Positions 5,901-62,635 of a stretch of 64,000 bases of DNA are shown piece by piece. The stretch comes from Salminus brasiliensis (lineage: Eukaryota; Chordata; Actinopteri; Characiformes; Bryconidae). Position numbers and translations under genes: made by a program. Under the pieces are notes generated by a model, which searched no databases, was not told where the DNA came from, and saw nothing but the letters and a program-made list of their open reading frames with translations. Position 1 is the stretch's first letter; the number at the start of each line of letters is the position of its first letter. The DNA lies in contig NC_132896.1 of the NCBI RefSeq assembly GCF_030463535.1, forward strand, positions 24,427,709 through 24,491,708. Direction: 5' to 3'.

Positions 5901-8900
5901 AAACTCAGGTAATAATGACATTACCCCACCTTCCTATGTAAAATCAATATAGTCCAAAAAAATATATATTCAAACTTTAAACTGTTGATTTTTTTTAAAT
6001 ATTGTCTAAATGTCTGCTGTTTAAGGCAGTTTACGATATTTTGTGATCTGCCTGACCACCTATATACTCTGGTCAGGCCTTGTTGTGCTTGTGTCTGAGC
6101 TTCGTAGACGTCACACTGCAGGCAGCTGGCAGAGTCCAGTTTCAGCGGTCTGTGTGCAGTAGCATTCCAAGCACACTGGTGATGGACAGGGCTATTTCTG
6201 TTGGCTGTGGGACACTTACTCACGCAAACGTATGAGGAGAATTAATGTCTAGTGACATGGTGTTGCTCAGACAAATGCATGCAAACACAAGCATGTATGC
6301 TCACACAGGCAGTGCATGGCCTTTCCATATTCATAGCCAGTTCGTACCTGCTGTGATGAAAAAGGCACCACCCGCCCTGTAGAGTTTGTGGCTGACGAAA
6401 GGAACTGCACACACCAGAAGAAAGCCACCGGTCACACTAGCAACAATGGCCAGGATTATTAGCATGGTCCAGAAGCCACGGAACACTAAACACACACAGT
6501 TCTTGTTTTAGTGAAAGATGGTATACAGTGATAATAAATATCATTTTGTCCTAAAAAGTGACAGGATGTGTGGAGCTTCTAAGCAATGTCCATGAAATTC
6601 TAATTATAATATATAATAAAATAACAAACTGTAATAAGTAGAATAATGTGAACAGTGTGTGCTATTGTGGGACTATGTTTTCTTTCAGAGATGGCGTGTA
6701 ATGGATCTATAGAAGTGACTTACCAAACCTATGGTGCCAAGGGTTTGGTAAGTAAGTCAATGGCAGCACCATGTATACCACACATAGTACATATCACTAC
6801 TAAATTTGTACACCATAATGAAAATGATTATCCAAAAGATATGACAGCAATGATTTATATATTGATAAATATAGATAAAGATACAGACATAGAAACCAAC
6901 ACCATGAAAATATTCTTAATTCTTAATTTCAAGTCCTTTTGGTAAATTTCTATTGGATAAGTCATCATGAGTTTTGATGCATTGTAAAGAACAACTGCCA
7001 GTAGTTGTCACTTGACTCTAACTCTCTGTATATATATACCGTTGCCCATATTTTCTTTTTAAATGCAGATTAAGGATTACAGTGTAGGATGCCCACCTAA
7101 AATAAGACATTTTCCAAGTTCCTAAACTTTGAAAATGTATTCCATGTTTTGAAAAGTTAAAATACCACCCCAAGCAAAGATGAGTTTTCTTAGGAAATAG
7201 ATCAAAGAACTGATTTTCATTTTCATCTTCATTCCCATCACAAAGCAATCATTCACTCTGTTTTATTATTAAAACAGACTGTTCCTAATATTTATATAGC
7301 ATCCCAGATGTGTTCTTGTACTGCATTGGGTTACATATGGCTCTGGTCCCAGAGTTCCAGAAACATGGTGTTAAGCTCATCTTCCCTATTAGAGAGAGTT
7401 TGATCTAATCGTGTAGAAGGTTTTTGTGCTACAAGACTTTTGATACATTTGAATCATTTCTAATTTAATATTTTATGACATACCTCTCAGCTATTAGCCA
7501 TTATTCACAATTAATGTATTTTTATTATTTAGTCTACACTGTGATGTATTTACACAAGCTCTTAAAGATCTTTAAATCATATTTTGAACAAGAATTAAGC
7601 TCCATATCCCAGTTATACCCCTTATACATTTTCATGTACATTCATAGTCTGCAGCTTAAAGAAATGTCAGTACAGTGGCTTCACTGTTTGTCATTCATTT
7701 GGAACTCGTAGTGAGAATGAACATTTTGCAACCAGAACAGATAGTTTGTTCAGTTTTCCTGAGCATTTTATATTGTGGCATAACACAAACAGACTAAACT
7801 AAAATCCTGCTTTACTGTCTCTGAATGTAAAACGTGTGTATGCATGAAAACATAGTTATTTCTTATGATTTATATGATAACTATTAGTTACTGTAATAAT
7901 TACATTTCCATATACCTGCTATACATTATGACAAAAAGGCATTAGAATGACTTTTAATGGCTAAGAAGTCATTAGTGATAAAAATGAGGGCCATAGTGTG
8001 CAGTCCAGACTTATACCTTGTGATCAAAATAAAAACTTTCCTTTTCTTTTAAAAAAAGTCCTAGAAGTATTTTAATAGAAAATAAATAAATAGAATAATA
8101 ATTTTTTTGTACATTGTTTAATTGTTGAAGTCTGCGGCTCACCACAAACCCCGATTTTGAAGAATGGGGGCACAAACCATTGCACTTTTGGCCCCTCATG
8201 ACAAAAAGTTTGGCCCCCCCTAGTCTAGTCTAGTGTTCTTCTGAAAAAAGGGTGGGCGTACAAAAGGCCTCACCTGCAGTGGCATCGTAAATGGGATGAG
8301 GGATGGGTCCAACCGCAACCGGCAGAGGGAAGAGGTATCCATGAACGCAGGCTTTTGATCTTGGCTGGTTTGCTGCGATCGGGCCGAGAAACAGAACCGG
8401 TCATGTTTAGAAGAGTCACATGAGAGCAAAATGCTTATGATCTGAATTTGTGTTGCGCAGTATTAGTCTCAAACAGCTTCCTGGTAAAAATATACATATT
8501 GCATAGCACTCACAAAGGCCAAAGCTCAACCACTTCAGAGTGGAATAACTCAGCTGTGCAGGCTTTGTTACTCACTGAACAAAACAGCCCACACTACGTG
8601 CAGCGAGGGGTCACTCTGGAACACGCAGCGCCAGAAGAAGCCCTCGTGATGGAGAGTGAGCGGGGATAGGCTGGGGTCCGTCACCTCCGCTCCCTGGGGA
8701 GAGGTGGAAAGGGAGCAAGAGCTGAAGCGGTTTGTCGGGAACAGGACAGGACGCTTTTAAAAATGTGATATTTAAGCCGGGTAGATAAAGTGCATGAAAG
8801 GGTGGAAAATGTAATGATCCATTTTCCATTCATGTTCTCCTCCTCGTGTTGACACTGCATGAACCTCTGGAAGAACCTATGACTGTTTGGAATAATATGA

Positions 8901-11900
8901 AACATTGCCTACTGTGGCAACCCTTCTGCAGCCGTAAAGCTCTTTGAAGTGAGCCACTGCTTTTGAATAAATGGCTCCATTTTTTTTTTTTTTTGGATAG
9001 GTACTGTGGAGTGCTGCCGAATACAGTCTCGCTGCCAAATGCAGCCTCTTAAGAACAAAAGTGGAAATAATTTGTGGTCCGTGGCCCTTTAAGCATACAT
9101 ATGAAATGATTCTGCACACTCAATGCTGTCATAAAAATGATTGATGGTGCAGGGAACCATATGTGTGTGTGTTTTTTTGTAGGTTTTCGTAGCTTAAAAG
9201 GAAGAAAGATTTGCAATGCTGTCAAGTCTGGATGATGACTTGCTGGTACAGAAACTGTCATGCTGACAACACTAGGTAGCTATGTCTGAATGGTGAATGA
9301 TGTACTTTGTTTTGAAGAATAGCTAGTATCTGGGTAATGTTCGCTAAAAAAAATAAAAAATAAAAAAGTGATGTCTCATTTCAGCAGTGCCCCAAAATAA
9401 ACTCTGTAACCGATGCCACTTCCTGAAAGTGACTCAAAAGCAATAGCGAGATTCCCTCCAGTCTTCCATTTAAATGCTTTTACTTTTGACATATTCAGGT
9501 CACTAATGTGCTTTAAGTTATACTTGAAGCCAAACCTGAAGACTAATACCTTTGATTCATCTGTATTATAAAATGAGCTATAGACATTGTTTGTTTGAGT
9601 GTTTGCTATAAAGCGTGGTCACAAATCGAGTGCCTACCAGTCTCAATGTAAAAATATTTAATAGTACTCTGAAAAAGGTAGACTGAGCTGATTGAAATAA
9701 ATAAATACTAAATTCCTTTAAAAACTCAAGGCCTTGGTATTTCAGTGATGTACAGAACAGACTTTGTCCAGCATGGATCAACACTGATCACACCAGATCT
9801 TTCAAGGTTGTTTACAAATGAAATAAATGTCATATTTAACCCCTTAACACTCCAAGGCTTATTACACACTAAGTATTATTCAGTAACTACAGGAACTTCT
9901 GTACAAACTGGTGGGGCTATTCTTTGGTAAAAGTTCTTGTCATATTTAAAAAATATTATAAAATGATTAATTTACTCTGTTGTATATACTCTACTCATAG
10001 ATTCTTATTTAGCTGGTCAAACTCACCTTGTAGTCTGAAGCTTTGCCCGAAACTGTGCTCTGCTCACCATATAGTGCACTACTTTGAGGTTTCGCCATTT
10101 GTAGTGGTGTCCGGAGTTATTATTATTTTATATTATTTTTGTAAAGATCCCACAATGCACCGCAATAACTAGTATACAAATGATGTACGCTATCAGACAT
10201 GGAATACCCATAATTTATCACATTGTTTGGTTATTTGGGGTTCAGATTGTTTATGTAACACAATCTGTTATGTAACACAATCTGTTTATCTTTACTGTGC
10301 TGTCACACAGTAGTTAACTCGTACACATGACAAGGTGTCTGAAATGGTTGGCTAACTGGTGGAATTCAGTTTCCTATAATAGTGCTCTATATTGTGGTCT
10401 GTATTTTGTCATGTAGAGGATAGTGAGTAGGACACAGCTCTAGGAAGAAATCTCAACTTATCATGACAATACTTCATACTGAAATTTTCAATTTTCAATT
10501 AGATCATGACTTAGGCCCCAACCAAGTGTGTCTGGATATTAAGATAAAATGAGCAATACTTTCGGCCTCAAGTCCACACTAACACAAATCACTGAAATTT
10601 TAGAGATCGGGTTGAGTAGGCCTGCTGGTTAAACTCAATTACATAGTCTGTGTTGTTAGAAAGCACAGTTGAACACACACTCTACTGGCCTGGAATGTTT
10701 TTCACATGGACAGAGAATTTTCAAGAAACTCTCTTTGCTGGACCTGGAGAGGAAAACCTACGTATAGCTTTTACCTGGGGTGAGGTAAATGCTACGCTAA
10801 TGTTAGTTTGGTTGTATTTATTATCCTACAGATCAGTTGCCGACATATTTGTGTGACATATGGTGGGTATTATAGTGAGATAACACTGATGCACAAAGTG
10901 AGCTTAGGGATACAATGCTGCACGCTTGCAGAATGCTGCAAATCACTACAAACAATGTTAAAAGCTAGTTTTTGACTAAAATGTCTATTTAGCCTGCTTG
11001 GAATGTTATAATCGTGTTACAAAAGTGCTATAATGTTAGTGTGCAAAGTTTGCGAATTATTTGGAAACATTATCACTTTCTTAAAAGAGCCTCAAAATGT
11101 TTTACAAGCGTTGGTTTTGCTTTTGCTATCTATCTGCCTGTAAAGGTAGTAAGAAACAAGGCAGATCCTTTGATATTGAGAAGAATGTTGATAACAGGTG
11201 TTGATTTTGCATATGGTCTCTGCTAGGCTATATAGTAGGCTATGAAGTAGGCTATATACTTAATCAGCAGTACTTTTGTTCCTTCTTATAGACAAAACTC
11301 ATCTTTAGCCTGTAACAAGCTGATCTTCTGTTTAATATGAAAGCTTGGCTCAACATTAAGTCTCCTTTCAGAGATACATGTCTGCAGAGTCCAGCATGCC
11401 TGACAGCTGGTCACGGTCTGACACACCCTTGTTAAATACTTCAGCTGTTTTTATTAGATTCTCTTCGCTAGAAAGTTATTCTTTCAAAGTGAATTGAGTT
11501 GGTGGGTTATTATTCTACTAGTTGTATATTAAATGTGTTTAAAAGTGACTGAATTACTGAATTTATGTCAGTAATTTAAATGTAGGTCAACGTTTTAGCG
11601 CTGATTTACTGATACTGTCAAAAAAGACATGTTTACCGTTGAATAGGACAGAATTGATAATTATGCTTCATGCCTGGCAGCCCAGTAGAGAACAGATTGT
11701 ACGGTGAGACATGCATGTATCTTTAACTGCCTTGGGCTACTTTTAGACAGGAGAGTGGAAAGCTTAAATCAGATTTGTTGTTCTTTACTTGATGCCAGGT
11801 TTGGTTTAGAAATGCTGTTGCTTTCCTAGAATGTTGTCATTGGTATATAAAAAAAGTCTCAAGATTAACATTAAAATTATTTCAAAGACATTAATTGTTG

Positions 11901-12315
11901 CTTTCATTAATTGTTGCTTTCAAAAGTAAAAGTTTTGCTTCAAATGAATCCCAAGTTTTTGCACTTGTGTCATTTGTTTAATGCCTTCTAAAACAGCTAT
12001 TAATCCTGTTTGTTTGCTCTGTAAACTGTAGTATACAAACCACAGCCCAAGCTTGTTTGCTCAGCATAGTACTTTTTAAAGCTCCCAGACATGGACTGCG
12101 TGCAGGCAGTGTGTGCGTGTGTGTGTGTGTGTTACCTCAGTGCTGTTGTCTTGCTTCTCTGCACTGACTGTGCGAAGTGTCGTATCCAGCTGCCTGAGCC
12201 CCCCGCAGTCATCACTCGCCAGCAGCCAGTAATCCGTGCCGAACGCCACCAAGAAGCAGAGAACCCCCAAGCCCCCCAGCAAGCCCCCAACCAGGGCGGC
12301 CACCCCAGTCTTCAT
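2943..12315 (-). CDS. tmem182: Transmembrane protein 182 (claudin/PMP22-like four-TM protein)
   Basis: Five coding exons join in phase: 12315-12136, 8693-8576, 8372-8274, 6485-6348 and 3163-2943 (TAA stop). They give 251 residues; mammalian TMEM182 has 229. Exon 1 starts at the ATG of MKTGVAALVG, followed by TM1 (about 5-30) with FGTDYWLLAS, a family hallmark. Exon 2 carries HHEGFFWRC (75-83), the conserved extracellular loop. Exon 3 carries TNQPRSK, exon 4 TM2 (RGFW, about 136-163), and exon 5 the end of TM3 and TM4 (YGWSF... to GKHLQKHT). An N-glycosylation sequon NST is at 57-59. In mammals TMEM182 is a muscle plasma-membrane protein reported to bind integrin beta-1 and restrain myoblast fusion; that role here is inferred. 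Exon 2 starts with a 13-residue segment (61-73) that I do not recognise from mammals. Whether this is the a or b fish paralogue cannot be decided. The gene is on the same strand as slc9a2, downstream of it. Confidence 0.92.
3301..3362. repeat. Perfect 17-bp inverted repeat (palindromic MITE-like hairpin)
   Basis: TCTCAAGCACACCTGAT at 3301-3317 is the exact reverse complement of 3346-3362, with a 28-nt loop between. The arms resemble the CAGGTGTG-type cores of short palindromic DNA-transposon relics common in fish. It lies in tmem182 intron 4, 138 nt from the last exon. Confidence 0.85.
3622..3783 (+). repeat. Interspersed repeat, copy B of a local direct pair
   Basis: Second copy of the block at 2221-2388, in the same orientation, within tmem182 intron 4 (3164-6347). 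It differs from copy A by scattered substitutions and a few small indels. Confidence 0.85.
5312..5410 (+). repeat. Interspersed repeat, one of an inverted pair
   Basis: This roughly 95-bp stretch (CATTACCAAATAATACCCC through AAGGGGTTAA) matches the reverse complement of 9837-9931 along its length, including the shared core GTTACTGAATAATAC. It lies in tmem182 intron 4. The family is not recognised. Confidence 0.8.
6486..8273. other. tmem182 intron 3, no feature recognised
   Basis: AT-rich intronic DNA between the GT donor after 8274 and the AG acceptor before 6485. No repeat family or coding exon was recognised. A GATTTTG/CCCC-rich patch around 8150-8220 lies just before the donor. Confidence 0.6.
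8694..12135. other. tmem182 intron 1, no gene seen
   Basis: A 3.4-kb intron. The acceptor has a good polypyrimidine tract (CCACCTCTCCCCAG). The donor GTAAC is followed at once by a CA/TG microsatellite (about 12108-12133). Apart from the repeat at 9837-9931 and two small tandem duplications (about 10243-10286 and 11884-11921), nothing is recognised. Confidence 0.6.
9837..9931 (-). repeat. Interspersed repeat, second of an inverted pair
   Basis: Its reverse complement matches 5312-5410. It begins TTAACCCCTTAACAC on the plus strand and ends at GGTAAAA. It lies in tmem182 intron 1. Confidence 0.8.
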
Positions 12316-15300
12316 GATGCAGCCAGCCAAAGTGAGTAGGCTCAAGTGAGGAGGCCAAGGACAGCGGCCCAGCCCTGCAGTGGGGGGCTGCGGGCACAGG
12401 AAGAGTGAGGGAGGGGTCCAACAGGGGTGGTAGTGGTGGTGGGGGGGTGATTGACTATTTTAGGGGATAGAAGAAGCAGCCCGGTCACACTTTGGTGTGG
12501 GTTACCCTAGGTGGGCTGAAGGCATTCCACGCTCAAAGCAAGGTGTGGAGTGCCCTGTTGAGCTTACTAAGTAGCCTATTTCAACCTGTAGAAGTTAATA
12601 GTTCATCTGTAAAAAAGAAATTAATACTAATCAATTTGATTTGTTTCAGTGATGATACTAATACATCACTGAAACAAATGGAGCATTTTTGTCCAAAGTA
12701 TGGATTCTACATTTCTGATTAATACCAATTTTGTGTTTGATAGTAAAAGAGGAGAATTATTATTAGGATGATTTATTAGAAGAAATTATTGTCTAGTTTT
12801 GCTGAAATTAAAACAATGCATTCTTGTTCCAAAGGAAACACATGGGGAAATGGAAAAGGCCAGAAAAAACTATGGATATAGAATAGTATGTTATTGTGTA
12901 ATTACATTTAAATAATTAATCAAAACAACATTAATAACTCTAGTCTTCCACAAGTTTGAACTGATTTAATCAACATGGCATATATAATGCGTGAAGACCT
13001 GTAAAGCTTCAGATCTTCCAGTGCCAGGGATTCTGTTTAGCGTATTTTGCACTAGGCCACACGTCTCTGGGAAACATACTGGCTGCGGAATGCAGTGGGC
13101 TGTTAGCGTAGTGGGCACTGTTTATTGATCAAAGCTATGTAGCCCCTCAGTGTTACTCTTGGACAGAAAGCAAAAAATGAATTAGCCAGTGGATGTCAAT
13201 TGCACCCCCAAACTTCCTGGCATACTTTACCACTCTGAGCTCAGTGTAGTCTTTCCAATATATGGACACAGCAGAACACTGTGTAGATTGTTGCCATGGA
13301 AAAATCTCTCCCTGAAACTGAAAACGAGAGCAGTTAGGTTCAGTATAGCCTTTGGGTCATTCAGTAGTGTTAGGTTAGAATGTATCACATTGCCGGTTCA
13401 AGCCCACTCAAGGCTTAATCTGGTTTTATGGCCGTGTCATGTGACTGCCCAGCAGTTATACCAGGGGGAAGAAGTATTGGCCTTGGAGGGTTGGAATTCA
13501 GTACATTTTAGTAACCAACCTGCTCAAAAAAACTTAAATTTAACTCATGTGTTAATCAGCAGGTTTAGTACAGCGAGACTCATTAAAATGATTGTGGTAA
13601 TTGATCGCTTACTGCAGATAGAGGTTAGAATGAAGAGCATTGGAGTATTTCTTTAAGTGGCTTAAGACCTTCTAAGCACTTCTCCTTCCACCTGACTGAC
13701 CATATGATTTGATGGTAGTGTTTTATGGTAATTATTGTAATTAAGAATTTTGTTGTTGCCGTGCAAATTCTTATATTTCCAAAATTAAAACTACAGGAGG
13801 ATAAAAAGTTGCTCCTAACCTTCAGTGTAAACAGACTTTATTCCAAGTACTTTTGAAGCATTTCAGTTGGTCTATTCTTCAAAATGTTTCGACACAATGT
13901 AAAATGCCTGAAATTATGGGATTTAAAATTATGTAAAAGAAAACCCCCTAAAATAAAGGCACAAGGATTTTCTGGTATAGCGACGATATCTGACACTCAA
14001 TTGTGCAAGGCGAATCCTCGTAGAGTTTAAAATATATGATCCTATACTGATCAGTCCAAAACCAGACACCTGTCAACCTTAGTAGAGAGGGCAGTGGTGG
14101 CTCAGGGGTTAGAGCGCCGGGCTATCGATAACAGGGATTGAATAATTTAACAATTTTAAATAAAATTCACACTGATTTTTTATTCAATCAAACTATTTAT
14201 ATACAAAAGATAAATTTGATCGGCTTGGATTACCCTAGGGACTGCTGATTTGAAATGTGTGCTGTTGCTTAGCACTACAGCATGATAACTCATTGGCTTC
14301 TGCAGCAGAACTGATATCTATCTACCCTAGATTACATTGTGAGTTATATAGCTATCCATCCACGGAGGTTATTAATGAAAAAAGGCAATAAGTGAGTGTC
14401 CAGTAAGTGAATATACAGATTGAAGGTGGCAACCCTAGGCTGTAGCCTGCAGTGACAATAAGCTGCCATGTATGCCTTAAAAATAGCATGCTAACTTTAC
14501 CTTAGTTAAACATCTGTGGATCTGACTCTTAAGACTTTTTAAACATGCATGAACTGTGTTGACTGTATTATACAGTAAGTCTTACATGCACAGGAAAGTA
14601 AAGACATGTTGGAATATATTATTTAGATCAATTCTCTCCAATTGTTTAAGCACCCTTTTTTTTATTCAAACCATATCATAAGAAATTGGTCTATTAGACC
14701 AATAAATAATGCATAGTAATGCCTAATAATATGAACTGTACATAGGGGTATAAGATCCAGACGGACTCCAGAATTTATTACAGTAAAGCATCTGAAGCAT
14801 CTTCCTAATATAAAATTGCGCTATGCTATAAGAAATATCAATATTTCAAACACTGCAGTTTTGTTTTATAAATTTTAATCATATGTGTCCACCAACCCCA
14901 CCCCTCTACAGTCGGTAGGCCAAAGGCACAGGCAATGCTTACATGCAAGGGGAAATTTGAATGTGTCAGTTTTGATACTGTACAACTATTATTGTTTTGG
15001 CAACTTTATTGCAATATGTGGCAATTTAAGAGCTGCATTTATTTTACCAGAAATCTTGTGCAAAAAGTATTCAGAGGAAAAAAAACACATGATATATGTA
15101 AAAGCATAGATATACGTAAAATTACAGGAAATTCCGCAGTCATTAGCAGTTTACTGTAAACCAAGGCATTGGCTTTCAAAAAGAAGGTCACTTCAGGTTT
15201 TAATTTCATTCAACTGTAATGTTAGGCCATGATTAAAATAATAATTTGTACGTAGCAGCATTGTGTATATTATGCGTAAAAGGCTGAGTGACATCACTCC

Positions 15301-19400: not shown

Positions 19401-22400
19401 TTTCTCACACTAACTCTCTTTGTGTTGTAGGTATCTGTATATTTGTGTGTTAAAAGCTAAGCAAGTGAAACAAGAGCTTTGTGAAGATGACAGCATTGCT
19501 CTAATGGCTCACTTACCCTGCAGTGGATCTCCTCACTCACTGTGGGCAAAACTCTCTTCTTCCTTTTAACGTCAAGTAGCTCTACCAGAGGCTTGATGGT
19601 CATACCCTGAAGCACAAAACGGAGAGTTAATTATTGATTGATTGATAAAAATGTATTCAACCACTTATCTTGCTTGTAGGTAGCTGCTGATGTATAGTCT
19701 TCTCTGGAAATAGTGGAACAGCAAGACCATATATTTTGTTTAAATATATGTATGACATATATATATACATTTTATAATAAATAAATGAGATGGGGGGTGA
19801 AAATTCTAGCTTTTATTTTCCTAATATTTACATCTAGATATGTTAACATAGATAATGGCACATTTGGTGGCATACCAAAAATGTTAGATGAGCAAAAGCA
19901 TAAGAATGTACTTTTTTTTTTTGTTGCAATAATTGCTTTGTGCTAGTGACTCACTAATATATCACCTAACTGTTGTATTCTGCGTTTGTTAGATGCTTCC
20001 TGGCTTTTAACACAGATTTGCTTAGTCTAAAACATTTTTCCCCTCTTCCCCTCTTTTGTCATGTTGGCTAAAGCTGCATTGTAAAATTTCTCCCAATTGG
20101 ACTACATGCATTTTCTGTAAATTGGCAGACAGACTTCTACTGCTGCTACCATTATGAGTTTGAGTGAGAGTGAGCTCATTCCAGAAGCAGGCTTGCAAAC
20201 ACTACCTCCACCATGCTTAAATAAGAAGCCTCTATGTTTTGGATCATGAGCAGATTCTTATCATTCTCTAAACTATGGCAGTTCCATCACTTTCACTGAG
20301 GTTAATCTTGGGCTCATCTGTCTATAAAACATTTGTGGCTGATCCCATCATTTCTCTGCAAGTTCCAATCTGCCCTTCCAGTTCTTACTATGGATTTCAT
20401 CTTGTGATATGGCCTCTATATTTCTGCTCTCAAAGTCATCTTTCAACAAAGGATTTTGATACCTTCACCTCCTCACCTCTTGCTCTTAATATGCCTCTGA
20501 CTTAAGCTTCTGTTGTTTTCCTTGGCTGACCTACTTGATGTGTGGTTATTAGTGTGGTTATAAATCACAATTCTTGTGCAGTTGCTCTGATTGATTGTCC
20601 CTCTTTTCACAGCTTTAAAATGTCTTACTTTTCTCCCATAGACAACTATCTGGTTTTTATTTTAGTGATCCTTTCTATAATAAAGGCAGTTTTCACAGGC
20701 AACATCTAGGGCTCACACCAAGAGTATACATTCACAGCAATTCATTGATTAAACGATAAATCTAACAAAGCAAACCTGGGCAGCAAGAAACACCTGTCAG
20801 GCACATGGTCCAATAGTTTTGCTCAGTTGAAAAAGCTGCCATGATCTAAATTGTTTAACATATCTACATGTGGAAGCTATGATGTTATTTAATGTATTAA
20901 ATTTATAACAACAACAAAAAAAAAGAATCAGCCTTGCCATTTCAATATTTTTGGAGGGAACATGTATGTTTAAATATAAATGTGATGGTAAGACATCTTG
21001 CATGCATTGATCAACCTGCACAAACACAGTGAACAGAATGACCACAATGGTGGTGGTGATGAAAAGCCTTTTTTTGGGGAAATCTTCAATGAGGAAGACC
21101 AGTGAGAAACAAATTGCCCCTCGCAGGCCACCATATGCAATGATGAACTGGTCACGGAAGGTCACAGCATTGCGGCGAAGTTTGTTGACTACTGCTGTAA
21201 GAAGGAGTACACCTGAGGAGTGGAGAAGAGATGAAAGAAGAACAGAAAGCAACAACGATGAACCATATAATGCAAACTTTGGCCTTGTCTTCTGTCTCCA
21301 GTTGTTTGATTGAAAATTTTCTCACAGATCAGATATCTATCTGATCAGAGTAAGGTACATGGAGTGTTTCAATGGTATGCACTTACCAAGAGCCCTCCAA
21401 AGCAGACAGAGGAAGAGTGTGGAGGAGACGAAGGGCCAGCTCCACATGTGGACATCCTGGATGGTAGATACGCCCAGAAAGATGAAGATCAGGGTCTCAC
21501 TCACGCTGCTCCACATCTTCAGGAAGTACTTGATGGTGGTGTTGGACCTCTCAGAGACATTGGCCTCCACATACTGTTTCATAGTCACAGCACAGGTCAC
21601 AATACTGCAGAGAGAACAGCACAGAAATTGTATTCTACATATTTTAAGTTATTGTAAAACACTGAACAACCACATGTTTCCTTACAAAGAGAGCAGTTAG
21701 TCCTGTTTAGTTGTATGTATTGCAGTGCAGTGTATGAAACCTTTTTTTTAACTGGATTAAAATGTGTTTGATTGGTGACACAAAAATGTTGTCCAGTTGG
21801 AAAGTGCTTTTGTCACATCCACAAACTTAGGGATCTTTAGGTTGCACCCATTGCTGATACAGATGTGCAAATGCACACAAACAGCTTGTCTAGCCCCTGT
21901 AGTAAAGTACTTTAAATGGAATTGGACTCTCTGGAGCTGTAAAAACATGCCCATTGGCACAATGTCTAATCCCAGGCATGGGCAAGATCTCTGGAATCAT
22001 GGTGCTCCATGCAATAGTTTTGGGATAAGTTGGGGAAGAGGTGAGGTAGTGATCACCCAACATCCTGACCTCACTAACGCTCTTGCTGCAATCAGATCCT
22101 TATGGCAATGCTCCAACATCTAGTAGAAATCTTTCCTTGGGTAGTAAAGACAATTACTCCAGCAAACCTGGAATTGTTTTTGCTTATCTTGCACACTTTA
22201 AGTACAGGTGGGCCTCCCGCACTGTACTTAGCTGGCAAACACTGCTTTTGACCAGTGGTTCTCAAACAGTGATAAGTGATGTTCCCAAACAGTGTTCAAT
22301 AATGCTGGAAGGTACAAAAATATGTTAGGTTGTTCATTGGCCTTACCAGCACAGGCAGACCAATATTAAGACTTCTATGAAGTGTGAAGGTAATGTTTAG

Positions 22401-23142
22401 AAATCTGTTCTGAAGCTAAATTGCCATTTTGTCTCTTTTAGTTTATGCTTGGTGGTTCTGAAGAGTGATGGTTTTGGCTGATCTGAGACCAGTCTTTCTG
22501 AAGGTTATAAAAACTGTTTTAGAGGCTGACGCTTATCTTGAATCAGCCTATACAGTTTTCAGGGCTCTGGACTAAGTGAAAATGGCCTTTGTTTATTTAC
22601 AGAGCACTGTGTCTTTCTGGGTCTCCCCAGAAGGGTTATTGTAAACATATACATTGTCTAAAATCTTGCAGTGAAGCCTTGAGCACACATTCCTAACCTT
22701 ATAAGAATTGACAAGAAATGTCCCTGCATGTGTTTAAATAACGCTGTGAGTTGATGACAGTTTCACGCAATAAGAGGAAGTCAGATGTTGGTTAACCATA
22801 TCCTGAAACAGTCTGAAAGTAGCTGAAAAGCTACAATGTGTGCCATTTCAGTCACACTTCCTTACCAGAATATATGTAGTGAAAAGTGTTAGCTTCTAGT
22901 TTTAATTGAATGCACAAGTGCATGGAACTATACATCCTCACTCTCATGCAAAAACCTTGCTTTTTGCTCTTTTTTCCACTACTTTACATTATGTCAAAAT
23001 ATAGATAAAATCTTTTTGCATTGAGGGTTTTATTTTCTGGAAAGCTTTAATTTTTGGATGTATAAGGATTTATGATGGTGATGATATAATGGTATAATAC
23101 TGAGTGAAACAAATTTATTTAAATATATTTCAAAAGAATTGT

Positions 23143-23203
<61 letters not shown>

Positions 23204-26200
23204 TAATTTATGGATGCAAGCAAACGTTTGGTCAAAATGTCTGTTGCTGTGAATAGTTAAGTAAGGAGAAGATCAGAACAGATCTTCGAAAGGCATACAG
23301 TTAAAGATGGTACATTCTTTTTCACATTTTAGGCAAGATTAGTGTATTATATTTGTTTTATACAATTCTAAAGTAAAAATGAGCCCCATGAATGAAAAAT
23401 GTAAAGATGTAAAAGTTTGTAATAGTTTACATTTTCTTTATATTGCATTGTTTATACATCACATTGCAGGACCTGCTGGTAACATCTGATACCACTGTTG
23501 TCCCCTGAACGGTTGTGTGTTTAGATATCTGTAGCTGTACACTCACGCCATGATGCCGGAGAAGTGAAGCATTTCCGAGGTAAGGTAGGACAGGTAGCTG
23601 TAGAGGAAGACAAAGAGTGGAGCAATGACCTGTGCTCTGGCAGTAAAACGAGTGGTGAGGGCTGCAACCAGCCCAAAGAACAGGCCCACAAACAGGCCTC
23701 CCAATCCTACCACCACAAACTGACAGCCTCCAGCAAGCACGTCCACGCTGGACACAGTTGGCATGCGTAGAAAGGACTCAAACAGTTTATATAGCACCTG
23801 TGGAAAAATGACAGAAGGAAAAATCAAAAAGGCTTTTTTTTTATCTTTTTGGGTTGTTGTTGTTTTTTTGTTTGTTTTTTTTTTTTTTTTTTTTTTTTTT
23901 GGGGGGGGGGGTATTTAGCATTGTCTCTTTTATCCTGTAGTTGTCGATGTGCCTCATCATCCACTGACCCTGCTCTGTCATTTTACATGGCCTGTCGTTT
24001 TGTTGCTGCCGTTCCCAATCACTTCCTCTTTGTTATAAAACCCCTGACTGACTGTGAAATATTTAGTAGTGAGGAATTTTCATGACTGGACTTGTACAGG
24101 TGGCATCCTATCACGGTACCACGCTGAAACTCACTGAGCTTCTGAGAGTGACACATTCTATCACAAATGTTTGTAGAAACAGTCTGCATGCCTAGATGCT
24201 TGGTTTTATACACCTGTGGCCATTGAATTGATTGGAACGCCTGAATTCAATGCTTTAGATGGGTGAGTGAATTCTTTTGGCAATATAGTGTATTAAGGGA
24301 AGTTGTCTGGTTAGGAGAAATGGTAGGAAAAGGTGCATAAGCAACATGGATGACCACAGCCTTGAAAGGATTGTCATGTGTCTATTCAAGAACTTCAGTG
24401 CATCAAGAGATACCATGCACAGATGTCCCCAGAAAAGGTGCTACAACTGCTGCATTCCTAATATCAAGCCACACACACTTACAATACAACTTCAGAAGTC
24501 TCTTACCTGGGCTAAGGAGAAAAAAAATTACCAATGCTCAATGATTACATTTTTCAGCAGAACTTAGCTACCAAATGGTTTGCTGACCATGATATTGCCT
24601 GATTGGTCAGCCAATCCCCCAGACCTGAACCCTAACACCTGTCCTAGAAATACAGATGAGCAGAAGGCTACTATCAAAGCAACCTGGCCTTCAGTATTCA
24701 GTATTTAAATTTCTGCATTGTACATCCTTTTCTGTTTGTGCTTATGAAATATGCTAATAATTTAAGAGACAGGGTTTGTAATGTTTGTGAGCTATTAGCC
24801 ACACTGATAAAACAAAAAACAAAGCTTGAAATTTGTCACTTTACATGTAAAGGTGCACGTATTTGTTACTGTACAGCGAAATGTGTCCTCCGCATTTAAC
24901 CCATCTGGTAGTGAACACACACACACACACACACGTGTTAGGGGAGTACACACACACACACCCAGAGCGGTGGGCAGCCAACTCCAGCGCCCAGGGAGCA
25001 GAGAGGGTAAAGGGCCCAACAGTGGCAGCTTGCCGAGCCCGGGAATCGAACCCACAACCCTGTTATCGATATCCCGGCGCTCTAACGGCTGAGCCACCAC
25101 TGCCAACGAATATGAAGACCTTTTACCTTTTTTTAAAAAAAGATTATGAAGATTATTTTTTACTAGTAGATATTAAGATATATTGGCCAAAAAAACCTAA
25201 AGATGAAATATGAAAAAATATATATATATTCTTTTGCTTGCCAGTCCTTGTCAGCACTTAAACAGTTCAAACAACAGCAGACAGCCCACAAAATGTGGGC
25301 CCACGGATCTTGGGTTAATGGCTTGGTTTATATTGTTCACTGTGTTCTGTAATTGAAAGAAAAATCATCCAACTTTCACTCTTACCACAGTTACTGCGTC
25401 ATTGAGAAGTGATTCTCCAAACACCAGGATGTGAAGCTGTTCATTGACATGGATCTCCTCAAACACCGAGAGCACTGCCACTGGATCCACGGCAGCAATC
25501 AGACTTCCAAAGAGCAAGAAGTGGAGCAGGCTGACCTCTTCCAGGCCCCAGCCACCTAGCTGGCACAGCCCATACAGCGAGAGCCCGATACCTAGCACAT
25601 TCCACAGCGTACCCAGCACAGCATACCACAGGATGGTGCCCAGGTTCTCAAAGAAGAGCCTCCCTGGTAGGAAATAACCAGCATCCAGAACAATGGGTGG
25701 GAGCAGGTAGAGGAAGAAAGCTTCAGCACTCAGGACAGGTGGAGCGGTGTGGCGGACCCCATAGATGACTCCTCCAACCAGTAGGCCCACCATGATTAGT
25801 AGACAGCTTTCAGGTACCACGGCAGGTATTCGTCCAGACCAGTGGAACCCTAAGAACGATATCATTATGCCAGTGAAATTTGTAGTCTTGTTATGGTGGG
25901 ATGGGATTGGATTAGGTGGGATCTGGAGTCTATTCAAGTGTTGTTGTTTTTTTTATTCTGTCTAGGCTTTTGGTATAATTTTTCTTATACAGAGATGGAT
26001 TCTGGTGGTTTATTGCCATTGGAAAAATATGCATGGTATGGGAGTTACTAAAATAATTAGCAATGCCCTCGTTAATCCTTGTGAAGGCAGCTAATAATAC
26101 TGTTGGCAGCTAAAAGGTGTTCAGCTCCATGGATGCTTTCCCCTTTTATTGATTTTTAATGAAATGATGGTCAATATAATTTGACAAAACAAATACACAA

Positions 26201-29025
26201 AAACTCTTTAATATCATGGTGAAAACAGATCTTTACAAAGTAATGTCAATTAAATAAAAGATATAATGTTAATTACGTGATTGCACAAATAGTCCCCCCC
26301 CCCCCTTTAAAGTGATTTACCTAATTCAGCAGAGGTCCAGACAGTTGGTAATCTCACAGTTAATGAAATGCGGATTACGCGAGTGCAGTGAATATGTTCG
26401 AAGTGATGATAGTATAGAGACACATGTTTGGAAGGTCAAAAGAACACTCTACGCAAAAAAAGGCAATTGAAAAGTCAAGGGATGGTTCACAATATAAAAT
26501 AATAATAAAAAGTCACAATTCAATTAAGTTCAGTTAAATCCAACATTAAAAAATGGAAGGAATGTGGCACATGAGCAGTCTCTCCTCACAAACTTAGTGA
26601 CTGTGCAAGAAGGAGACTAGGGAGGTAGGCCACCAAGACAACTCTGACTACTCTGAATGAATTAAAAGCTTCAGCAGTTCAGAAAGGAAAGACTCTGCAT
26701 ATGACAACTGTTGCTTGGGTTTTTCATCAGTCAAAGCTTCGTGGTAGAGTGGCAAAATTAATACGAATTAAATCTTGACTAAGGCTCCTAAGCTTTTTCA
26801 GTCCGCAAGAGAAGATTTATTTTCCAGCAAGACAATGACTTGAAACATACAGCGAAAGCTGCACAGAAATAGTTTTAAGACAACAATGTTATGCAGTGGC
26901 TGAGGAAAAGCTCAGACCACAATCCAATAGAGAATTTGTTGCTGGACTGTGCAACATGACAAATCTTAAGCAGTTTTGCAAAGAAAAATTGTGTAAAATT
27001 GCAGTGCCTAGACGTGTAAGCCTGATTAAGACCTATCCACACAGACTGTGAATGAATGCAAGGGTGCATCTACTAAATACTGACTTGAAGGGAGTGAATA
27101 TTTATGCAATCATTTATTTTTACATTAGATATTTTTATTTAATTGACATAACATAAATCTAACATATCATAACATAACATAAATCATAACATAATAAATC
27201 TGTTTTCACTTTAACTTTTTTAAGTTTTTTTTTTGTTGTTTTTTTTGTTTTTTGGTAAATTCAGTTTTCTTTTTCTTTTTTAAAAAGTACAAATTATATT
27301 GACCTTGATTCCATTTACAAAAATAATAAAAGAGGAAAACATCCACGGGGTGAACACATTTTATAGCCACTGTACATTTACATTCACGGCATTTGGCTAA
27401 CACTCTAATTTAGGTAGCATTAGGTAGGTGAATGTAGCGTTAGAAGTCTTGCCCATGGTCTCCTATTGGTGTAGTGTGGTTTGCTTGGCTGGGGAATTAA
27501 AAAGTAGCCTGTCCCATAGAAGGCAGTGTTGCTGCCCACAACCTTTAACCCAATTCCATAGTTATCCCACATTTATTGGTTTGTGCATTATTCATTTATT
27601 AATTTTATCATTTTTGGGTCTCTGAGAATGTAAGTGCAATGAATACAATGCTTTTTAAAATGAATATTAATGTTACCTGGGGTTATTTCTACAGCTTATT
27701 GTGGAAAGCTGTATTGTTATGGAGTGTGCAGTCCATACAATTAACTAGTATGGAGGATTTTCTTTAAGAAACGTTCATTTTGGATTATCTTATACTTATT
27801 CTAATGATTAAGTTTGGATGTACAATAAGGTTATTTATTAATAAAAGTTATTTTTTTTATTTTAGCTGTCAACCATAGCACAGCTTAACTACATTAAATA
27901 ACCATTGTTAATACTTTTTTGCTGAAGTGTGGAAGCCATCCACATCACCAGACTCTGGGTTTCTTTCCCAGTGATGTTCTGCTAGACCTGTATTACAGAT
28001 GTTTGCAGTTCCTGCTTAAGTTAAGGATGTTTAGTCTTCACTTTTAAGTAGACAAATTGCATACATGTTTTTGCTTCACAAGATCTTTTTTGCTTTCATG
28101 CTATGTATACTGTATTGATGTTTTGCTTTGTAGTTTATCATACCGGTCTATGTAAACAGTTTCTGACTGGGCATTTAACCAGTGGAATCCTCAGAAACAT
28201 GTGATTTCGATCATTTTGTAGCCTATTGTGAAGAGTAGTGCAAAAGGTGCTAGGTGTTTTTTGATACCAGTGTTCATGTTTTGAGCAGTAGGATGTTTTT
28301 TATAGCAAATGTTATAGCAGAGTTATTGATACTCTGTAAGGTCACCACAAAATATTTAAGCAGTTGTTTGTATAATTAGTTTGATTACATTGACTTCATT
28401 ACACATCAGTCGCATCAGTTGAACATATTCACACAGCCTTCCTCAATATTTTTTGTGGATTAGGCCACATATGAGGAAATAATAAGAGCACTGAGCTTTT
28501 AAAAATACAAAGTACAAACTTTTGCCTTTATTATTATTAACTTTGATAATGAGCAGATGCTCCCTTAAACATAGTGAATTATTCTGAAATAAAATCACCT
28601 TTTTGATAAAGAACATTCTGTGCATATTATCTGTAAATACATCTGTTGACAAAGTGTCAACATGCACTCAAGAGTCTTGGTGTTAGTATGGATTAAACAA
28701 GGCTCAGATTTGAAGAAATCTCTTTTAACCTCTACTACAAAAAAAAAAAAAAAAACTCACCTAGCTTAGCCAAAGATGCCAACATGATCCAGAGCACGAT
28801 TTCAAAGGGAGCTTGCACATGGTGGTAGTCCACACTGAAGACTCGAAGAGCTATGGAGCCAGTGTGATGGCTCTCCGCTTCGTCTACATCAATGCTATCC
28901 TTGCTGTGGTTCCCCAGCTGAGGTGAAAGATTTTGGGTGGATGTTAGGGCAGTTGAGGGATCTGCTAGTAGTAGTAGGAGGAGGAGAAGGTGGAGGTAGG
29001 TCTGGGGGATCCAGAGTTTCAGCAT
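16458..29025 (-). CDS. slc9a2: Sodium/hydrogen exchanger 2 (NHE2, SLC9A2)
   Basis: Ten coding exons join in phase: 29025-28761, 25849-25386, 23797-23547, 21604-21387, 21212-21016, 19606-19517, 18010-17940, 17335-17183, 17047-16951 and 16604-16458 (TGA). They give 650 residues. A Leu-rich signal sequence precedes the exchanger core. [16 protein letters not shown] (133-148) is the inhibitor-binding TM4 region, DPVAV is at 210-214, the transport motif ND at 238-239 ([11 protein letters not shown]) and [10 protein letters not shown] at 426-435. The cytoplasmic tail has PKSSIV and YSRHTL, both NHE2-like. The family exchanges luminal or extracellular Na+ for cytosolic H+ at epithelial apical membranes. 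Segments such as LLIMVGLL and DQFIIAYGG favour NHE2 over NHE3 and NHE4. The tail stops about 160 residues earlier than human NHE2 (812 residues); exon 10 or later splicing may be incomplete. An upstream in-frame ATG at 29070 is an alternative start; 29025 gives the cleaner signal peptide. Confidence 0.93.
18110..18345 (-). mobile_element. Degenerate tRNA-derived SINE
   Basis: Read on the minus strand, the right end (GAGTGGCCTAAATGATAG, then GCCTTGTGACCGGAAAATG and GATCAATCCCC) resembles the A-box to B-box head of a widespread fish SINE whose intact B box is GGTTCGATCCC. The body has the usual AAGGGCACTT and GGGCAGTT segments and ends in a short CACACA tract. It lies in slc9a2 intron 6 next to exon 7. 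Confidence 0.7.
18346..19516. other. Rest of slc9a2 intron 6, nothing recognised
   Basis: AT-rich intron sequence between the SINE and exon 6. No coding exon, RNA gene or clear repeat family was seen. Confidence 0.6.
20130..20780 (-). mobile_element. Antisense, truncated Tc1-like transposon
   Basis: Plus-strand text such as TTTTCCTTGGCTGACCTAC, TTGCTCTGATTGATTG, CTTACTTTTCTCCCATAGAC and ATTGATTAAACGATAAATC is the complement of a common fish Tc1 transposase and its 5' end (start codon near 20660). The open frame at 20275-20505 is an antisense shadow. The element sits in slc9a2 intron 5 and has no intact transposase. Confidence 0.82.
21797..22330 (+). mobile_element. Degenerate Tc1-derived interspersed repeat (with a relative at 43.9-44.4 kb)
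   Basis: CTGACCTCACTAACGCTC, GCTCCAACATCTAGTAG and flanking text correspond to the 3' part of a common fish Tc1 transposase. The preceding part (AACTTAGGGATCTTTAGG, GACTCTCTGGAGC) belongs to the same internally deleted family, also seen at about 43900-44390. It lies in slc9a2 intron 3 and has no functional frame. Confidence 0.65.
22331..23145. other. slc9a2 intron 3 remainder, nothing recognised
   Basis: No exon, RNA gene or repeat family was recognised between the Tc1-derived repeat and the TA microsatellite. Confidence 0.55.
23146..23199. repeat. (TA)n microsatellite
   Basis: About 27 uninterrupted TA dinucleotides in slc9a2 intron 3, followed by AATTATAATTTATGG. Confidence 0.95.
23875..23911. 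repeat. Poly-T run abutting a poly-G run
   Basis: A long T homopolymer is followed directly by about ten G residues, in slc9a2 intron 2. It is simple sequence and error-prone for assembly. Confidence 0.9.
24290..24720 (+). mobile_element. Internally deleted Tc1-like transposase remnant
   Basis: Segments CTTGAAAGGATTGTCA, GTGCATCAAGAGATACCA, CTTACCTGGGCTAAGGAG, AAATGGTTTGCTGACCATG and ACTATCAAAGCAACCTGG run in the order of a Tc1 transposase. They match the fuller copy at 62636-63580. Frameshifts, stops and a large internal deletion make it nonfunctional. It lies in slc9a2 intron 2. Confidence 0.85.
24835..25104 (-). mobile_element. tRNA-derived SINE with recognisable Pol III A and B boxes
   Basis: On the minus strand the head GGCAGTGGTGGCTCAGCCG is followed by TTAGAGCGCCGGGATATCG (A box, complement of 25079-25096). 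GGGTTCGATTCCC then forms a B box matching the consensus (complement of 25041-25053). The body has CACTGTTGGGCCCTTTACC, CACACA runs and TTAAATGCGGAGGACACATT, and it ends near CTTTACATGTAAAG. It is inserted in slc9a2 intron 2. Long open frames across it are artefacts. Confidence 0.9.
26120..27373 (+). mobile_element. Degenerate Tc1-like transposon (second family)
   Basis: From about 26590 the order CAAGAAGGAGACTAGGGAGG, TCAGTCAAAGCTTCG, CCAGCAAGACAATGACTTG, CCAATAGAGAATTTG, AGACCTATCCACACAGACTG, CATCTACTAAATACTGACTT follows a common fish Tc1 transposase. The right end GGTGAACACATTTTATAGCC followed by ACTGTA matches its terminal repeat near 27373. The catalytic D (CAAGACAATGAC) and E (ATAGAGAAT) regions are visible but separated by indels. 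The left boundary is uncertain. It lies in slc9a2 intron 1. Confidence 0.82.
27374..28740. other. slc9a2 intron 1 remainder, nothing recognised
   Basis: AT-rich sequence ending in a 17-nt T tract (on the coding strand) that begins at intron position +6 of the exon 1 donor. No exon or repeat family was identified. Confidence 0.55.
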
Positions 29026-30320
29026 GCTGCTGCCTGGCCAGGGGAGCAAGGGGAGAGCGGGATGGGGCATGCGTGTGTGTATCTCTGTCCTTCCACACCC
29101 ACACCCCACTGGCTGGCTCCCCAGCTAACGGATGCACTCAGGCACTAATGTGCACAGGAATCCCTGAGCTAGCAGTGGAATCCAATCAGCTGTAAGGGAC
29201 TTTTAAGGGGGAGCCACATCAGTAAGACCAGGGTATGACGAATCAGTATGAGCTGCATGTAATAAGACTTTGTTTAGAATTACACTGGTCTGCGAGCAAA
29301 TGTGTTCATTGACGGACAACAATTAAAAAGTATGCAGATTTTTTAATTTGCTATAGTTGGTTTATTATAAGTACAGTACCATAATGTAGCAGCAGGTGGC
29401 AGATATACAGCCTTTTGCAAATATGCATTTTAGTATCTAACGCTATGTCATTTAGAACAATTTGACATTTTACAGGATTTCCTTTCTTTTTTCCTATGGG
29501 TTAAATTATTTATTTAATTAATAATTGTGCATAACCCACTGGAGGCTACTGTTATTACAAGCACAAAAAGATAACACTTTACATCAAGCTGCCTAATTGA
29601 ACTTTTTTCTAAACCAACTAAATTGGTTAACATTAGCAAATCACAAAGAGATTCATAGATTTGAGAACTGTGGGCCAATGCTAATACACAGTATGTATAA
29701 TGTGTAATTTCTTATGATGCTGATAAATATATGAAATTGTCAGTGTTACTATTAAACATCCATATAACATCCATATATTCATTTGTGGAGGGTTACAAAT
29801 TCAGTAAAATTACTAAAATGTAGAGCTTGTAGTGCAGCAGCCCAGCATCATTTGTAATATTCTGATCTTCCAAAGTCAAAGAAATACATCATCAAATATG
29901 ATTGAAATATCGGTCAAATCAAAAGAATATTTTTAAGCAGCGGTCCGTGCATACTGATTTGATTCCCATATCATTGTACATCCCTACAAGTTTTAAAGCA
30001 CTTAAAATGATAGTAAATCATGCTGAAACCGTCCTTTTAGCATCACTTATGAATGCCTTGAATTAACCACATTAGTCAACCGCATTCATTCAAATTGATT
30101 ATTGTGGACACACAATTAAGTACAAATCAATGTATTTGGAGAGTGACATACTGTTTGTGGTTTTGCTTCTGTTCACCAACAAATTGTACTTAAAATCAAA
30201 CAATCAACAATCAAAACAAAAGTTGTAAAAACGCTAAAGAAATACATTCAATTTGATTTGATAAATAAATGATTTCATAAATGTAAGTATTTTAATACTT
30301 CGGTGCAAATAATTTACAAT
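29026..30320. other. slc9a2 upstream region and putative promoter
   Basis: On the minus strand the sequence immediately 5' of the start codon is GC-richer. About 130-190 nt upstream are CTTAAAAGTCCC (TATA-like, near 29196-29207) and CTGATTGGATTCC (CCAAT-like, near 29178-29190). These are plausible core elements, but no transcription start can be placed. Beyond 29250 the sequence is AT-rich with nothing recognised. Confidence 0.4.
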
Positions 30321-31244: not shown

Positions 31245-32132
31245 TTACAGGCAGTCAGGGTGCACTGGTCTTTTGGGCTGTTCTGCGTTGGAAATGCGCA
31301 GTACTGGAGAGCTGAAGTTGGAGCTGGCTCGTTGGCTGAGGTGCCCCTGGCTGGTGGCGAGTGGAGGGACTTGGTTTGGTCTGGCCTCAGGGTCAAGGCT
31401 TGAATCCATGTATGCCTGCTCACTGAGCTGAGGCAGGCTGGGCTGGCGGAGAAGAGGGAAGAGGCTGCAACCAGGAGAAGATCCAGGGCATGCCAGTCTT
31501 TCCTGCAGGTACTGGCTGTACACTTCCTGGAGCTTTCTATCCAGGTAACCATTAATCATGGAGTTAGTCGGAGGCTCTCCATTTAGCATGATGCTGCTGT
31601 CCATCACCAGGTAGCCATTGTCAGGGATGTGGGCCTGCTCAGGAATGAACCGGAGCTGCTGGGGGGCAGATTCATCCATGTCTGATGTGTGCCACTCTTG
31701 CGGCTTCATTGAGAGAAGGTTCTTTTGGCTCTCGGAGATGCCTTTCAGTTGCATGTCAGGGCTGTCATTCAAGGCATTGCTGGTCGGCAGGCTTTGACTC
31801 AGATTTACATAAGTCTTACAGAAGTACAGGTCAGGGCTGGGGTGAGGATCCTGGGATCCTGACTGTTTCACCTCATAAGTCACGTCTGAAAGTGCTGGCT
31901 TGTCTGACGCTGGTGTTTCTGTCAGTGAATAGTACAAAACAACATTACTGAATGTAAATTTCACCCAAATTGTCTCTTTAGAGGTACTCCAGAGCCTACC
32001 TTGCACCTGAGAGTAAGAACCGGGGCCATGAACGCTGTCCGTAGAGGAAGTGAGCGATGCCCTAGTTACACCTGGTGAGAGACTATCCTCTTGTCTGTAT
32101 TTTAACAGATGTATGAAGCTCTCTCCCAGCAT
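31245..32132 (-). CDS. TASL/CXorf21-like protein (SLC15A4-binding TLR adaptor family)
   Basis: An open frame from the ATG at 32132 to a TAA at 31245 encodes 295 residues. Residues 190-213 (NSMINGYLDRKLQEVYSQYL onward) align by eye with the helix NAVLNEYLEQKVVELYKQYI of human TASL. Both are followed by an SSP turn. Near the C-terminus SPVLRIS (275-281) corresponds to SLHIS in human TASL, the pLxIS site through which the adaptor recruits IRF5. The N-terminus MLGESF echoes human MLSEGY, the SLC15A4-binding end. Human TASL (301 residues) acts on endolysosomes downstream of TLR7/8/9; the role here is inferred. An 81-nt in-frame segment (31999-31919) has GT-AG ends and may be an intron, giving 268 residues. 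The residue before LRIS is Val, not a polar residue. It may be a second fish TASL paralogue; mammalian TASL is X-linked. Divergence from the human protein is high, so the family call is firm only at the two motifs. Confidence 0.78.
   Translation of the reverse strand: MLGESFIHLLKYRQEDSLSPGVTRASLTSSTDSVHGPGSYSQVQGRLWSTSKETIWVKFTFSNVVLYYSLTETPASDKPALSDVTYEVKQSGSQDPHPSPDLYFCKTYVNLSQSLPTSNALNDSPDMQLKGISESQKNLLSMKPQEWHTSDMDESAPQQLRFIPEQAHIPDNGYLVMDSSIMLNGEPPTNSMINGYLDRKLQEVYSQYLQERLACPGSSPGCSLFPLLRQPSLPQLSEQAYMDSSLDPEARPNQVPPLATSQGHLSQRASSNFSSPVLRISNAEQPKRPVHPDCL
31919..31999 (-). other. Possible 81-nt in-frame intron (exitron) of the TASL-like gene
   Basis: The donor CAAG|GTAGGC and the acceptor TATTCACTGACAG flank 81 nt with no stop codon, encoding residues 45-71. 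Splicing leaves phase intact (G plus AA gives Glu). The encoded peptide (GRLW...VVLYYSL) is hydrophobic and intron-like, and unlike TASL. Confidence 0.55.
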
Positions 32133-35914: not shown

Positions 35915-48625
<12,711 letters not shown>

Positions 48626-62600: not shown

Positions 62601-62635
62601 GTATCTTCCAGTCTAGTCCTCAGCACATGCAACCA

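Follow-up and report, generated by a model that had tools for sequence, protein, structure and literature searches.

Background

TASL (CXorf21; Pfam family PF15133) connects the sensing of nucleic acids at the lysosome with interferon genes. We describe here a tasl-like gene on the minus strand of a 64,000-nucleotide stretch of DNA from the fish Salminus brasiliensis (NCBI RefSeq assembly GCF_030463535.1, contig NC_132896.1, positions 24,427,709 to 24,491,708), referred to below as the window. In published accounts TASL is a lupus-linked adaptor (PMC12974799), and residues 1-14 of the human protein form a helix that enters SLC15A4 (PMC10589346). The contacts named are the main chain of Leu2 and Ser3, Glu4, and Tyr6, the last of which touches Lys384 and Asp385 of SLC15A4 in the human complex, while replacement of Ser3 by Ala is without effect on co-localisation (PMC10589346). 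The first ten residues of TASL are reported as conserved. Binding is disrupted when Glu4 is mutated, and that of the peptide is decreased or abolished when residues are added ahead of Met1; an AlphaFold2 (AF2) model places Arg44 and Lys180 of SLC15A4 at TASL Glu4 and Tyr82 at Met1 (PMC10502012). In the pLxIS motif, p stands for a hydrophilic residue (PMC7411613).

A further family member, mouse TASL2 (Gm6377), was reported in 2025 as previously uncharacterized and has orthologues in other vertebrates; mouse Tasl and Tasl2 each have a single protein-coding exon (PMC11759703). From fish, channel catfish LOC108266986 has been called an orthologue of human TASL, and turbot tasl is among the genes induced by poly I:C (PMC11426453, PMC12263217); the passages of these two reports that we draw on state neither the copy number nor which copy is meant. 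The parts of the main texts on TASL and TASL2 in fish covered here contain no account of several TASL genes per fish, and we claim no priority.

A TASL-family gene with a probable intron

An ATG-to-stop frame of 295 amino acids occupies 31245..32132 on the minus strand of the window, with the ATG at 32132 and the stop codon ending at 31245, and both the helix INGYLDRKLQEVYSQYLQ and PVLRIS lie within it. A first-pass annotation made from the sequence alone had read this frame, with its helix and its LRIS, as a TASL/CXorf21-like gene, and the open frame, Pfam and PDB agree with that reading. The profile search of the unspliced frame returns TASL as the sole Pfam family at E values up to 10, with 44.1 bits over residues 176-282 (cut-off 27, E 3e-11). 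The top PDB match is 9irc_B, a TASL chain (E 7.4e-5), in an alignment that spans the helix and the LxIS motif; entry 9irc also contains an SLC15A4 chain. Three further PDB matches, at E 0.23-0.39, were treated as chance.

The frame appears continuous because the segment 31999..31919, corresponding to residues 45-71, has no stop codon, but very probably it reads through an unspliced intron there. The gene model of the first-pass annotation would need correction here: the frame is real, and the protein would shorten from 295 to about 268 residues. The probable intron is 81 nt long, GT..AG, phase 1 and in frame, with the donor AAG|GTAGGC, which outscores the other donor-like site listed for the stretch, and the end CTGACAG; its GC content, with the first two bases excluded, is 0.37, lower than in the exons on either side (0.50 and 0.54). 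The call leans mainly on a sister gene on contig C1, described below, because the phase-1 intron of that gene sits at the matching place. On the spliced protein the Pfam TASL match scores 44.9 bits over residues 149-255. A TASL orthologue proper would be expected to have a single coding exon, like mouse Tasl; with this intron the window gene has two. Its features are as follows.

32000..32132, minus strand: coding exon 1 with the putative SLC15A4-docking stretch MLGESFIHLLKYRQED; 133 nt, ends in phase 1 (open frame, comparison with the C1 sister)
31919..31999, minus strand: probable in-frame intron, 81 nt, GT..AG (donor, GC content, intron of the C1 sister)
31245..31918, minus strand: coding exon 2 and stop codon (open frame; Pfam TASL on the spliced protein)
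31491..31568, minus strand: conserved helix TNSMINGYLDRKLQEVYSQYLQERLA (covered by both the Pfam and the PDB alignments; shares 16 of its 26 residues with the C1 sister)
31290..31304, minus strand: VLRIS, the LxIS motif with Val at p, LRIS itself being 31290-31301 (open frame, PDB alignment)

The region where the probable intron begins has a weak tblastn match at 32501-32554 on the minus strand (50% over 18 residues, E 0.07). This match is probably due to chance, but could be a small duplicated tract.

Three TASL-family loci in one genome

The PF15133 profile was searched against the whole genome (1.07 Gb, 103 contigs), which yielded three loci, all over the cut-off: C8:41885541-41886266 with 228 bits, a gene on C1 with 87.6 and the window gene with 39.8. 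Locus counts obtained in this way are lower bounds; the same search of 14 control genomes gave no match. A protein search of the genome with the window frame, at E values up to 0.001, recovered the frame itself and C1:26586890-26587261 (E 1.6e-12) and missed the C8 locus. On C8 the gene consists of one uninterrupted frame of 281 amino acids, running from MLCESSLWRM to STPQLQISSQTK, with QLQIS as its motif. The C1 gene has a first exon of 163 nt ending in phase 1, an intron of 344 nt that is not open in frame, and a second exon with the remainder; the intron could end at either of two AGs, four bases apart, and the one that keeps the frame was chosen.

The C1 gene resembles the window gene in its MLGE.F.H.L.Y.QE start, its FSSPVLRIS end and the matching position of its phase-1 intron. 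It differs in the length of that intron and in its far better Pfam score (97.8 bits), and the two proteins share 29% of their residues across 299 aligned positions. When scored at a fixed database size, the window and C1 proteins match each other with 65 bits, the window and C8 proteins with 38 and the C1 and C8 proteins with about 40, while the scores against 9irc_B are 77 for C8 (70 in the reverse direction), 45 for the window and 35 for C1. Identities in the C-terminal part follow the same pairing, with 40 of 91 positions between window and C1 and 41 of 88 between C8 and 9irc_B, against 27-32 of 87-91 in the four other pairs. A tree of the four sequences over 108 columns separates C8 and 9irc_B from window and C1 with a bootstrap of 100 (200 replicates), the columns backing the three possible splits numbering 6, 1 and 1; the tree is small and unrooted, and 9irc_B stands in it without a stated species.

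Judged from sequence, the window gene is a TASL-family member and a diverged extra copy, and it is the C8 gene that falls with the solved TASL chain. Grouping with the known TASL, as opposed to being a paralogue, would mark a TASL orthologue proper, and the window gene lies outside that group. The first-pass annotation had thought that the gene might be a separate fish paralogue and had proposed a TASL tree; the idea is borne out in a stronger form, with three loci and a tree that pairs window with C1 and C8 with 9irc_B. The window and C1 genes probably arose by duplication of one ancestral second TASL gene.

Conservation of the two ends

The N-terminus of the window protein, MLGESFIHLLKY, carries a putative SLC15A4-docking motif that is absent from the first-pass annotation: Leu2 and Glu4 are kept, with Gly in place of Ser3 and Phe in place of Tyr6. 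Ahead of Met1 the frame continues for Leu-Glu only and then meets a stop, with no in-frame ATG before that stop; because the upstream frame is so soon closed, translation would naturally begin at Met1, barring an upstream exon that contributes residues. This matters because residues placed before Met1 decreased or abolished binding of the TASL peptide. Over the first 16 residues the window and C1 proteins agree at 10 positions, a figure that none of 100000 shuffles attained when Met1 was kept in place. The 24 N-terminal residues of the window protein had no PDB match at E values up to 10, so the homology of the docking helix rests on the residues named in the two structural papers and on the C1 sister. 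The C8 gene (C8:41884300-41886600) starts MLCESSL and so keeps Leu2 and Glu4; at the position of Tyr6 it has Ser, and the window pair has Phe.

At the other end the window protein has a C-terminal LxIS motif, LRIS. The residue before it, which the first-pass annotation had correctly given as Val, is shared with the C1 protein; the corresponding motifs are PVLRIS in window and C1, PQLQIS in C8 and PSLHIS in 9irc_B. Because C1 has the same Val and C8 has Gln, the substitution is a property of the pair; the first-pass annotation had suggested that it could affect the binding of a kinase or of IRF.

Proportions of nonsynonymous (pN) and silent (pS) differences between the window and C1 genes were compared in four blocks, a contrast that is descriptive because the blocks were picked by eye. 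In the SxFSSPVLRIS block of 11 codons, 10 residues and only 2 codons are identical (pS 0.87, pN 0.04). The helix of 26 codons has pN 0.19 and pS 0.62, with 16 identical residues, and the N-terminal 16 codons have pN 0.21 and a pS above 1, the block being small. The fourth is a GYLV block of 7 codons, considered further below. Across the 183 aligned codons outside the four blocks pN is 0.54 and pS 0.79, and 49 residues agree. The predicted protein thus shows conservation of both ends, the docking stretch on one side and the helix with LxIS on the other, around a middle that has drifted. TASL has the same layout, with ML.E at the N-terminus, a C-terminal helix, LxIS near the C-terminus and a long variable middle; the window gene departs from it in the probable intron within its coding sequence, in the Val before LxIS and in the Phe for Tyr6.

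Partner genes and a possible adaptor function

Candidate partners are encoded in the same genome. The 14 matches to the PTR2 domain fall into four groups, one each on C6 and C7 and two on C8. The C6 exon is the first exon of SLC15A4, by its PDB match to 8cni (E 4e-63), which we take to be the chicken SLC15A4 of the binding study (PMC10502012); other SLC15A4 chains follow at 2e-48 or weaker and SLC15A3 at 4e-42. By hand count on the alignment, this exon keeps Arg44, Tyr82 and Lys180 of 8cni. An IRF-3 domain search gave 16 matches, and the one of these that was compared with PDB, on C2, is of IRF5 type (PDB 3dsh, IRF5, E 1.6e-52; next IRF4, 1.4e-15). Because the PDB matches contain no IRF6 chain, the distinction between IRF5 and IRF6 rests on reading the C2 and C25 translations.

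We consider it fairly probable, from these sequence comparisons, that the window gene encodes a TASL-type adaptor, one of a diverged pair that exists alongside the TASL-grouping gene on C8, and that this adaptor would dock on SLC15A4 and recruit IRF5. Its first residues would insert into the inward-open cavity of endolysosomal SLC15A4, the serine of LxIS would be phosphorylated upon TLR7/8/9 signalling, and the phosphorylated motif would then recruit IRF5, in parallel with the product of the C8 gene. Such a mechanism is likely because the two ends are conserved and the genome has both SLC15A4 and a gene of IRF5 type.

Several observations weigh against this reading. The window copy has the lowest Pfam score of the three (39.8-44.9 bits, against 87.6-97.8 and 228), and Pfam aligns the C-terminal part only. 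Tyr6, the contact residue for SLC15A4 Lys384 and Asp385, is Phe, and the residue check in SLC15A4 covers the first exon, the equivalents of human Glu465 and Lys384/Asp385 lying in other exons. The residue before LxIS is Val, here and in C1, in place of a hydrophilic one. The mechanism is carried over by analogy from TASL and TASL2, and with Val at this position the IRF step could differ in strength or in partner. Finally, the GYLV block has a pN of 0.24 with zero silent changes, and the silent divergence (dS) between the window and C1 copies is saturated, so that the values given above compare the pair and do not describe the window copy by itself.

Genomic neighbourhoods

The genes recognised in the window lie in the order TMEM182-like, Na/H exchanger, tasl-like and sh3bgrl, all on the minus strand, with the exchanger gene downstream of the tasl-like gene.

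2943..12459 (approximate), minus strand: TMEM182-like gene, named by eye; Claudin_2 over the cut-off on its last segment and under it on the first
20797..29124 (approximate), minus strand: Na/H exchanger gene (slc9a2-like); open frames, with Pfam Na_H_Exchanger on two of three segments
37392..48625, minus strand: sh3bgrl, the upstream neighbour; coding pieces from 48625 downward, 38232-38047 and 37472-37392

The segment 28735-29124, read by eye as the first exon of the exchanger gene, has no Na_H_Exchanger Pfam match. The first-pass annotation had named this neighbour slc9a2; that it is an Na/H exchanger follows from Pfam, while the member, for which we keep the term slc9a2-like, rests on the adjoining TMEM182-like gene and the human gene order. 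A genome search with the last segment of the TMEM182-like gene returned the segment itself and, weakly, C8 and C7. The sh3bgrl gene was first located with a human probe; it matches SH3BGRL in PDB (1u6t, E 9e-47) better than SH3BGRL2 (4e-35), and Pfam SH3BGR at E 2e-36. The segment 48251-49000, the sole stretch passing a CpG scan of the window (GC above 0.5, observed/expected above 0.6), overlaps sh3bgrl at its first coding exon and may be the promoter of that gene. The translations of 45415-45893 and 62617-63331 (plus strand) resemble, by eye, remnants of Tc1/mariner-type transposases; one transposase-like piece of 127 amino acids had no Pfam match at E values up to 1. Visual inspection of the open segments of at least 65 amino acids revealed no recognisable gene in the 30 kb to the right and the 10 kb to the left of the window.

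Within 100 kb of the C1 gene lie ATRX (PDB E 2e-33) and pieces of a cyclic nucleotide-gated (CNG) channel and of bromodomain, WD40 and SAM-domain proteins, which, among the segments listed, look CNGA2-, BRWD3- and CNKSR2-like on visual inspection. SH3BGRL, ATRX, BRWD3, CNGA2 and CNKSR2 are X-linked in mammals. Both the window and the C1 copies thus have neighbours of X type, and not the GK/NR0B1 pair. The first-pass annotation had argued for a separate paralogue from the distance between SLC9A2 and the X-linked mammalian TASL, an argument that is weakened by the X-linked neighbour on the other side. Six probes (two exchanger, TMEM182-like, sh3bgrl, gk and nr0b1) gave no match at E 0.01 in the 200 kb around the C1 gene, and relatives of sh3bgrl elsewhere were found on C27, C14 and C3, none of them on C1. 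The pair could have come from a genome duplication in fish, but the neighbouring genes do not point to one, the sh3bgrl and TMEM182-like relatives lying on contigs other than C1.

The first-pass annotation had also proposed a search for a second TASL gene at the fish equivalent of the GK/NR0B1 locus. There are two glycerol kinase loci, at C8:35.41 Mb and C15:21.03 Mb, and the C8 tasl, at 41.89 Mb, shares its contig with the first at a distance of 6.5 Mb, but the NR0B-type receptor matches are on C29, C1:98.77 Mb, C3 and, weakly, C68. The tasl, gk and nr0b trio being scattered, what holds is the sharing of a contig by tasl and one gk. One scan of viral contigs for relatives gave 19 pattern matches, none of which was confirmed.

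Alternative explanations

An explanation to which we incline slightly is that the window and C1 genes are orthologues of mouse TASL2, so that this fish kept TASL2 twice beside TASL. The X-type neighbours, sh3bgrl beside the window copy and ATRX with the bromodomain/WD40, CNG-channel and SAM-domain pieces by C1, are in its favour, and Gm6377 presumably lies near Sh3bgrl in the mouse. Mouse TASL2 is, like the window gene, an extra TASL-family gene beside TASL with conserved ends; its single coding exon, however, differs from the two inferred in both fish copies (PMC11759703). The comparison is by description, the sequence of TASL2 being outside the tree.

It is unlikely that the window copy is decaying or dominant-negative, docking on SLC15A4 with a VLRIS that makes a poor kinase or IRF5 site and so competing with TASL. 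The Val where p is hydrophilic and the lowest family score of the three loci would fit, and a pLxIS mutant of TASL2 appeared dominant negative in mouse cells (PMC11759703). Against this, the frame is intact over 295 codons, and LxIS and the residues before it have stayed alike in window and C1 though 9 of 11 codons differ. More speculative still is the proposal that fish hold an old second TASL class, marked by two coding exons and VLRIS, in which the docking helix on an exon of its own would allow splice forms with and without lysosomal docking, and the Val-type LxIS would serve another kinase or IRF, giving two SLC15A4 branches of endosomal TLR signalling.

Pfam TASL membership and the neighbouring sh3bgrl could be taken to mean that the window gene is the plain fish TASL orthologue, relocated beside slc9a2. 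This is very improbable: C8 is a far better TASL match (228 bits, and 45% identity to 9irc_B over 92 positions), it has a single open frame and a polar p residue, and the tree parts window and C1 from C8 and 9irc_B, which refutes the idea for this genome unless the C8 gene is a contaminant or a mis-assembly. The poorly conserved middle and the weak non-TASL PDB matches (E 0.23 to 0.39) might suggest a frame open by chance, or a disordered protein outside the TASL family; this is refuted by the Pfam E value of 3e-11, by the C1 sister (E 4e-12 at fixed database size) and by the conservation of both ends.

Implications

As far as sequence can tell, the window gene is a real TASL-family gene and a member of a diverged pair. 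The presence in one fish genome of one gene that groups with TASL and of two more suggests that the family has at least two branches outside mammals, and the three copies form a natural series of LxIS variants. Expression data for fish "tasl" should state which copy was measured, and a knockout study in such fish would have to remove every copy.
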